DNA from: Paracoccaceae bacterium
GTDB lineage: Bacteria > Pseudomonadota > Alphaproteobacteria > Rhodobacterales > Rhodobacteraceae
Reading direction: 5' to 3'
DNA length: 64,000 nt
Assembly (NCBI GenBank): GCA_030697175.1
Contig: JAUYQR010000017.1
Coordinates: 1 to 64,000 of the forward strand
The stretch's first letter is position 1, and every line of letters begins with the position of its first letter. This document shows positions 26,370 to 27,143 of this stretch, one piece after another. The position numbers and the translations under genes were made by a program. The notes beneath the pieces are model-generated. The model searched no databases. It saw nothing but the letters and a program-made list of their open reading frames with translations, and had not been told where the DNA came from.

Positions 26370-26534
26370 CGCCCGTCCCATCGTGGGACACTGGTGCCGC
26401 CTGTGGGAAATCAACGGCTTGGCGGGTGCGTCAGGGGTTTGTTAACCAACATCGTGCTGCGTGGGTGACGGGCCCTGGTTGATCGAGCGCCTGCGGCGCA
26501 TTGCCTTTGCTCGCCTCTGAGCCTGCGGCTCAAC

Positions 26535-26627: not shown

Positions 26628-26642
26628 TTAAGGAAAGGTTAA
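26628..26642 (+). promoter_or_regulatory. CtrA-type binding site TTAA-N7-TTAA
   Basis: TTAA at 26628-26631 and TTAA at 26639-26642 are separated by exactly seven bases, the canonical CtrA recognition spacing. The site ends 41 bases before the -35 of the predicted GTA promoter, a position suited to activation. CtrA is known to be required for GTA expression in Rhodobacter. Confidence 0.65.
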
Positions 26643-26683
26643 GGTGGCGTTCGGTAACCCATTGTTGCCATTGGATTTTTTGC

Positions 26684-26712
26684 TTGACTTGGCGAACGGT
26701 CCAAGGTAGATA
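26684..26712 (+). promoter_or_regulatory. Predicted promoter upstream of GTA g1
   Basis: TTGACT (26684-26689) and TAGATA (26707-26712) with a 17-base spacer match a sigma70-type promoter at 10 of 12 positions. Transcription would start near 26719, about 95 bases before the g1 ATG. Confidence 0.65.
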
Positions 26713-26738
26713 TCATGGCATGCTGAAAGAAATGTGAG

Positions 26739-26771
26739 AGCGGCCCGGGGCAACCCGTTGGCCGCTTTTTT
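26739..26771 (+). terminator. Intrinsic terminator between promoter and GTA g1
   Basis: Stem agcggcc (26739-26745) pairs with ggccgct (26760-26766); an inner cggg/cccg helix closes a GCAA tetraloop; six T residues follow. It would end a transcript of about 50 bases started at the predicted GTA promoter. Alternatively it terminates read-through from mltG. Confidence 0.85.
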
Positions 26772-26813
26772 CATTTCGCTCGTGCGGGGCTGCATGAGGG
26801 GTGGCGAAGGTAG

Positions 26814-27143
26814 ATGACAATCAGGCTCTCCGACGGAGACGCCGTGCCGGACGATGTGCTGGCAGTGGCGGATGGTTTGTACCGGATGGCGGCGGAAGAG
26901 TTGTATCGCACGATCCAGGCGATCCGCACCGGGCAAATGAGTGAAGTGAAGGCTGCGCAGACAGCGGTGCGCGATCTGCGCACCACAGCGCTGCAAGTGC
27001 TGGAAGAAAGGACCAAAGTTGACAAACTCCGCAAGCAGATTGCCGGGCAGGTTGGAGCCGGGGGTGCCCTCGACTTTGACGCAGCGCGGGCTGAAATCGG
27101 GCGCCGCCTGGCTTGCCTCCGCGACGCCGGAGGAGGTGACTGA
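26814..27143 (+). CDS. g1: GTA g1: small terminase subunit TerS
   Basis: First gene of the GTA cluster, 109 residues, matching RcGTA orfg1, which was shown to be the small terminase that recruits DNA for headful packaging. Mostly helical: an N-terminal helix pair (ADGLYRMAAEELYRTIQAIRTG), then the long coiled segment LQVLEERTKVDKLRKQI typical of TerS oligomerisation. No helix-turn-helix is evident, consistent with the non-specific DNA packaging of GTAs. Its 3' end overlaps the start of g2 in another frame. Confidence 0.9.
   Translation: MTIRLSDGDAVPDDVLAVADGLYRMAAEELYRTIQAIRTGQMSEVKAAQTAVRDLRTTALQVLEERTKVDKLRKQIAGQVGAGGALDFDAARAEIGRRLACLRDAGGGD

Follow-up and report, generated by a model that had tools for sequence, protein, structure and literature searches.

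The PR'/tR' unit of lambda consists of a promoter, a short leader and a terminator, with Q acting as an antiterminator that is loaded at the promoter. At the GTA promoter of Caulobacter crescentus, the protein GafZ binds the spacer between the -35 and -10 elements and antiterminates, an ability that GafA may share in the view of the authors of that work (PMC11150451). As noted by Tran and Le in the same text, the sites of GafA are unmapped at nucleotide resolution, and an unrecognised antitermination activity is possible (PMC11150451). The published view is that GafA is an activator which operates through the omega subunit of RNA polymerase. No description of a terminator in the leader of a Rhodobacterales GTA was found in the open-licence literature, nor, within the same literature, of wide conservation of such a terminator or of a shared GafA word; the string "terminator" or "terminat" occurs 0 times in the accessible text of PMC6363796, PMC9638019 and PMC6854486.

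The region upstream of the GTA structural cluster in the present window (that is, the entire 64,000-nt stretch of DNA analysed) suggests a comparable organization (Table 1). We propose that the cluster is served by a compound, terminator-gated promoter at which GafA would bring about read-through and to which a CtrA-type site would be accessory, a reading that we hold to be evenly balanced between right and wrong. This proposed promoter is considered a better finding than the upstream TTAA pair, to which the preliminary description of the locus was devoted.

Table 1. Features at the head of the GTA structural cluster, in window coordinates
Feature	Position	Strand	Remarks
TTAA-N7-TTAA pair (TTAAGGAAAGGTTAA)	26628-26642	+	probable CtrA-type accessory site; sole copy in the window; placement kept in relatives
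GCGTTCGGT, upstream copy of the CGNNCG word	26647-26655	+	position in sequence; recurrence in the genus set
IHF-like site, degenerate	26655-26667	-	two mismatches to YAANNNNTTGATW; relatives often better
-35 element, TTGACT	26684-26689	+	anchored on it: 181 of the 209 relatives
GCGAACGGTC in the -35/-10 spacer	26692-26701	+	predicted box of the GafA C-domain
-10 element, TAGATA	26707-26712	+	sequence and genus alignment
Predicted start region with the conserved initial bases of the transcript	26720-26735	+	alignment of 87 leaders; relatives have ATGCTRGAAGAAGTGGGC or AAGCT...
GC-rich hairpin and T tract (GAGAGCGGCCCGGGGCAACCCGTTGGCCGCTTTTTT)	26736-26771	+	predicted promoter-proximal intrinsic terminator
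g1	26814-27143	+	ORF; taken as g1 because it precedes the large terminase ORF

Comparative set of upstream regions

Matches to the N-terminal part of the large terminase were obtained in 175 of 199 evenly drawn genomes of the family, and upstream DNA was read for 110 of these (30 loci, including that of the genome under study, and 80 stretches). The best 80 of 307 named relatives were added, as were 19 genomes of the genus Rhodobacter and one more genus, to give a comparative set of 209 upstream regions. A promoter and leader profile, built from pattern-selected sequences (144 matched), produced hits in 195 of the 209 regions at E ≤ 1, and 181 of these were anchored on the -35 element at more than 30 bits. 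Since some of the named loci have the same sequence as G loci, counts over the whole set are not independent, and a set with one region per genus (87 anchored) is safer for counts.

Core promoter and spacer word

The -35 and -10 elements had been placed in the preliminary description as TTGACT-N17-TAGATA, and this placement is supported by the comparison of 87 genera, in which the first -10 bases are T at a frequency of 0.95 and A at 1.00, while TTGAC is present in the -35 element at 1.00, a value that is partly built in, as the profile by which the sequences were chosen contains it. A generic scanner listed an overlapping TTGGCG-N16-TATCAT instead of TTGACT/TAGATA, which went unlisted because TAGATA is without the final T.

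A CGNNCG word occupies the spacer position in 71 of the 87 genera (column frequencies of C 0.87, G 0.98, C 1.00 and G 0.92), with CGNNCGGTC as its near-invariant form and a core that is common to gafA promoters. An upstream CGNNCG lies 35, 36 or 37 bases before the -35 element in 20, 12 and 7 cases, respectively, across the same genera. Within gafA promoters, the word precedes the CtrA site by 60 or 61 bases in 23 of 27 cases.

The positions of this word in R. capsulatus can be set beside published binding data. There, g1 is preceded by the spacer word at a distance of 120 bases, within the 76-125 fragment, the one GTA fragment to which GafA binds (PMC6363796). The R. capsulatus gafA promoter carries the word 145 bases before the chosen gafA start; Sherlock and Fogg tiled 150 bases of that promoter with three fragments, of which GafA-C bound fragment 3 (PMC9638019), and we infer from its containing the -35 element that fragment 3 is the farthest of the three. 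Closer to g1 in R. capsulatus, at distances of 40 and 36 bases upstream, CGNNCG words are also present in fragments that were unbound by GafA, and the CGNNCG core alone is therefore insufficient. It is proposed that the CGNNCGGTC spacer word represents the box of the GafA C-domain, placed like the GafZ element of Caulobacter. The genome itself encodes gafA (a DUF6456 protein, E 1.3e-62).

Several further observations concern these promoters. The gafA promoters (the genome's own, L232 1381-1650, together with L230 and L249-L277) present the succession GTGTTGCG, CGNNCG, a GTTTATCTTTTGGAAACAAT-like word and the CtrA site, and, by eye, TTGCGCAAC-like words are found upstream of the -35 element in some GTA promoters without the TTAA pair. 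A leader peptide beginning with the ATG at 26720 was considered and rejected, many relatives having AAGCT, not ATGCT, at this place.

A predicted terminator in the leader

Between the predicted start and g1, ending 42 bases before the latter, lies a GC-rich hairpin followed by a T tract. Folding of the leader gave -30.8 kcal/mol (z of -4.06), with 0 of 200 shuffles as good; the generic scanner did not list this hairpin, nor is it mentioned in the preliminary description. A hairpin of -10 kcal/mol or better with a T tract is present in 180 of the 181 anchored leaders, as opposed to 16 and 22 of 87 in shuffles of the genus set. As the profile seeds had partly been picked for their T run, the test was repeated without the profile, upon which a hairpin of -14 kcal/mol or better with a T tract was found in 186 of 208 regions, the remaining 22 failing; among shuffles the figure was 7 of 104, and among coding stretches of mltG it was 10 of 192.

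The stem shows covariation. Among the 87 aligned leaders, 85.9% of outer-stem cells are paired, as compared with 78.4% for shuffled alignments (0 of 500), and doubly changed cells number 46 against 16.5 (0 of 500), the count of pairs with a double change in the same alignment not exceeding that of the shuffles (5 against 4.5). When a consensus fold of the leader alignment was computed automatically, the outcome was weak, with just 3 pairs at -1.52 kcal/mol, because loops of differing length were misaligned, and the stem was thus counted as named. A covariance model of the leader found one copy in this genome, at the place of the hairpin. Under strict filters, it matched 16 of 241 Alphaproteobacteria genomes at E ≤ 0.01; two stood below 1e-10, namely this genome and another member of its family, G050, and the rest, including two more of the family, stood at 5e-4 or above. 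Rfam, searched at a relaxed threshold, gave sub-threshold matches only, e.g., RcsR1 at 19.5 bits against 60.

The corresponding hairpin of R. capsulatus extends from 76 to 45 bases upstream of g1, and the predicted start is located approximately 94 bases upstream of the same gene. The published start of the R. capsulatus GTA falls within the 76-125 fragment (PMC6363796); the hairpin is thus downstream of the predicted start in a manner that fits the published one. Judged on such sequence evidence, the hairpin with its T tract has the attributes of an intrinsic terminator under selection. Because it lies between start and g1, transcripts from the predicted start must cross it to reach g1. Directly 3' of the hairpin, TTTCGCTCGTGCGG (26776-26790), which contains CGNNCG words, is kept in many relatives.

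The upstream TTAA pair

The preliminary description reported a TTAA-N7-TTAA pair 41 bases upstream of the promoter and about 170 bases before g1. The pair is an exact match at its assigned position, the gap to the -35 element is indeed 41 bases, and that to the ATG of g1 is 171 bases, placing the beginning of the pair some 92 bases upstream of the predicted transcription start. On the plus strand both half-sites read TTAAG, the minus strand reading TTAAC-N6-TTAAC. When the window was shuffled 100 times by dinucleotides, a TTAA-N7-TTAA was present in 1 shuffle; the genome (3.67 Mb) contains 17, as against 6 copies of the reversed control pattern. Both the pair and the promoter are confirmed as observations, and the pair is not due to chance.

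Comparison with other Rhodobacteraceae GTA upstream regions, which had been suggested as a check, showed that the pair is kept in place. Within the 150 bases before the -35 element, 107 of the 181 aligned relatives have an N7 pair matching in at least 7 of 8 positions (3.9 in shuffles) and 35 have a perfect one (0 in shuffles), other spacings from 3 to 13 giving 0 to 5 perfect pairs and 8 to 31 near-matches; 81 of the 107 begin 54 to 57 bases before the -35 element. The one-per-genus set yielded perfect N7 pairs in 18 of 87 regions and pairs of at least 7/8 in 45 (29 of them beginning 50 to 60 bases before the -35 element), with 0 to 1 and 4 to 12, respectively, for N5, N6, N8 and N9. Elsewhere, the 80 named loci (507 kb in total) contain just 1 other perfect pair. 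No TTAA is found within 1,043 bases before g1 of R. capsulatus, and the genomes of its genus that were fetched, 16 in number, include a single one with a 7/8 pair at the usual place and another with a 6/8 pair. In these alignments the element is conserved, yet lineage-specific.

Next to the pair lies an IHF-like site, the IHF consensus being WATCAANNNNTTR. A site with at most one mismatch is present in 88 of 181 relatives, mostly 25 to 29 bases before the -35 element (3.9 in shuffles), and in 34 of the 87 genus-set regions (3.4 in shuffles). By eye, genera of the L200, L204 and L212 type have a ATACCGNNCGGTTA-like near-palindrome in place of the IHF-like site, just 3' of the TTAA region. The comparison suggests that upstream elements turn over above a constant core promoter and leader.

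The genome also contains an extragenic repeat with the palindrome GTCCCANNNTGGGAC, present in 76 copies (1 for the reversed control), which resembles the BIME/RIB repeats of E. coli. In 12 of 15 copies read, an IHF-like site follows 18 to 19 bases after the palindrome, and these 12 have a TTAA-N7-TTAA-like pair at 22 to 23, scoring at least 6/8 in 11. One copy is situated after mltG, at 26375-26445, 200 bases from the pair upstream of g1. In the 507 kb of related DNA that make up the 80 named loci, the palindrome does not occur. Of the 17 TTAA-N7-TTAA pairs in the genome, 15 were fetched and 8 of these belong to the repeat.

Candidate regulators and alternative explanations

The genome encodes a CtrA orthologue with 74% identity to that of Caulobacter, and CtrA is the likeliest binder of the pair. 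The genome's own gafA promoter retains a CtrA-type site, TTAAC-N6-GTAAC, as in R. capsulatus, and the known indirect route from CtrA to gafA looks intact. The gafA family was found in 111 of 120 genomes, and of 31 gafA loci (30 of those, plus R. capsulatus) 27 show this form at 9/10 or better. As for the structural cluster, it is absent from the list of in silico CtrA sites for D. shibae in the available text of PMC6473078, which includes gafA and other GTA-related genes. In vitro, CtrA at up to 4 uM gave no binding to 633 bp of R. capsulatus GTA promoter DNA (PMC6363796); because that promoter is without the TTAA pair, the result is not transferable, and should not be extended to pair-carrying relatives. 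A matrix derived from the gafA CtrA sites, applied outside the TTAAs, gave a mean of -6.4 for the GTA sites, -12.7 for the window, -13.8 for random sequence and 12.5 for gafA; the scores did not decide, and the matrix was dropped as arbiter of the binder.

The preliminary description had read the pair as a sign of direct control of the structural cluster by CtrA, an interpretation that the sequence data partly support: the pair is perfect, conserved in place and rare elsewhere, ctrA is present, and R. capsulatus, where the negative binding result was obtained, lacks the pair. Published work also finds that GTA production in R. capsulatus requires CtrA. The stronger version, in which CtrA bound to the pair would directly activate the sigma70 promoter as a classical activator, nevertheless appears rather unlikely. 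Full sites through which Caulobacter CtrA activates begin near -35 from the start (PMC4287350), whereas the window pair, at about -92 from the predicted start, does not have this geometry and is too far upstream for classical activation, for which reason plain direct activation is disfavoured; the near-random score of the window pair outside the TTAAs, the intact gafA route, the many genera without the pair and the fact that half of the fetched pairs lie in the repeat also weigh against it. A serious rival, albeit an improbable one on balance, is that the pair is an element of some other upstream factor, such as the N-terminal domain of GafA, positioned upstream of the IHF-like site like the GafY element of Caulobacter. 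Such an arrangement is indeed seen in Caulobacter (PMC11150451), and the TTAA-IHF geometry recurs in the 76-copy repeats, which have no evident CtrA promoters, but R. capsulatus GafA functions without any TTAA upstream of g1, and the Caulobacter GafY element is given as ACTATG (PMC11150451). Descent of the pair and its IHF-like neighbour from a copy of the genome's own repeat that landed here and then decayed might be imagined from the proximity of the copy after mltG and from the share of fetched pairs found inside the repeat; the retention of the pair's place in other genera and the lack of the palindrome in all 80 named loci make this a very improbable origin. We accordingly retain a probable CtrA-type accessory site as our preferred reading of the pair.

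The role of the hairpin also admits another explanation, namely that, without being a target of antitermination by GafA, it ends or insulates transcription that comes out of mltG or stems from leaky starts, or else gives rise to a small RNA. It would block read-through from mltG as well, and small RNA genes are built in this way, as a promoter followed by some 50 nt and a terminator. This explanation is countered by R. capsulatus, in which the mapped start is upstream of the hairpin, so that g1 transcripts must cross it, and in which a separate hairpin, detected by eye, directly follows mltG. Taken together, this explanation is regarded as unlikely. The terminator-gated promoter has adverse points of its own: activation by GafA through the omega subunit, as published, needs no terminator, the CGNNCG core does not suffice, the consensus fold is weak, 22 of 208 regions fail the hairpin search, the IHF-like site of the window is degenerate, and the binder of the pair might be a factor other than CtrA.

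Proposed mechanism and comparison with known systems

According to the terminator-gated reading, sigma70 polymerase would start near 26720 and, by default, stop approximately 50 nt later at the leader hairpin. GafA, the C-terminal DUF6456 of which is related to Caulobacter GafZ, would recognise CGNNCGGTC in the -35/-10 spacer and load onto polymerase, leading to read-through of the hairpin. This override is read from Caulobacter, where GafZ, bound to the promoter spacer, allows polymerase to run past terminators. The TTAA pair would be accessory and confined to certain lineages, its most probable binder being CtrA and its neighbour an IHF-like bend site, with CtrA input at the pair adding to the known CtrA-to-gafA route. 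By extension, the archetypal GTA across the Rhodobacteraceae may be Q-like, with a leader stop at about 50 nt, GafA on CGNNCGGTC, perhaps assisted by pausing at the conserved bases transcribed first (GCTRGAAGAAGTGGGC), making polymerase processive and, in some lineages, CtrA and IHF providing a second check of cell state; this generalization is tentative, its chances being a little short of even. Q-like gating, if true, would help explain all-or-none GTA production. The predicted leader terminator, present in most of the family, and the CGNNCGGTC core in gafA promoters make both the GafA site and the switch precisely and quickly testable in R. capsulatus.

The CtrA site of gafA resembles the GTA pair in possessing two TTAA-type halves at equal spacing (TTAAC-N6-GTAAC), but it is near the start and is then followed by GTAACCAAT, whereas the GTA pair, with TTAAG on the plus strand, stands far upstream. 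The GTA promoter of R. capsulatus (locus L131) has the same gene order, spacer word and leader hairpin, and differs in having no TTAA pair. With the gtaT promoter of C. crescentus, which is served by GafY, IHF and GafZ, the present locus shares a GTA promoter with an upstream element (that of an activator in Caulobacter, a probable one here) and an IHF site that is here IHF-like, an element between -35 and -10 (that of GafZ in Caulobacter), a terminator, here predicted, to be bypassed and a homologous DUF6456 activator (PMC11150451). In Caulobacter, however, the terminator comes after the first gene, in three 150-bp repeats, whereas here a short leader hairpin precedes g1; the spacer and upstream words also differ, and the -35 element is degenerate there and near consensus here (PMC11150451). 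The lambda PR'/tR' unit displays the promoter-leader-terminator anatomy and logic proposed here, although no Q homologue is present here and read-through is, for this locus, a prediction. The proposed promoter is akin in its anatomy and logic to the Caulobacter GTA promoter and to lambda PR'/tR'.
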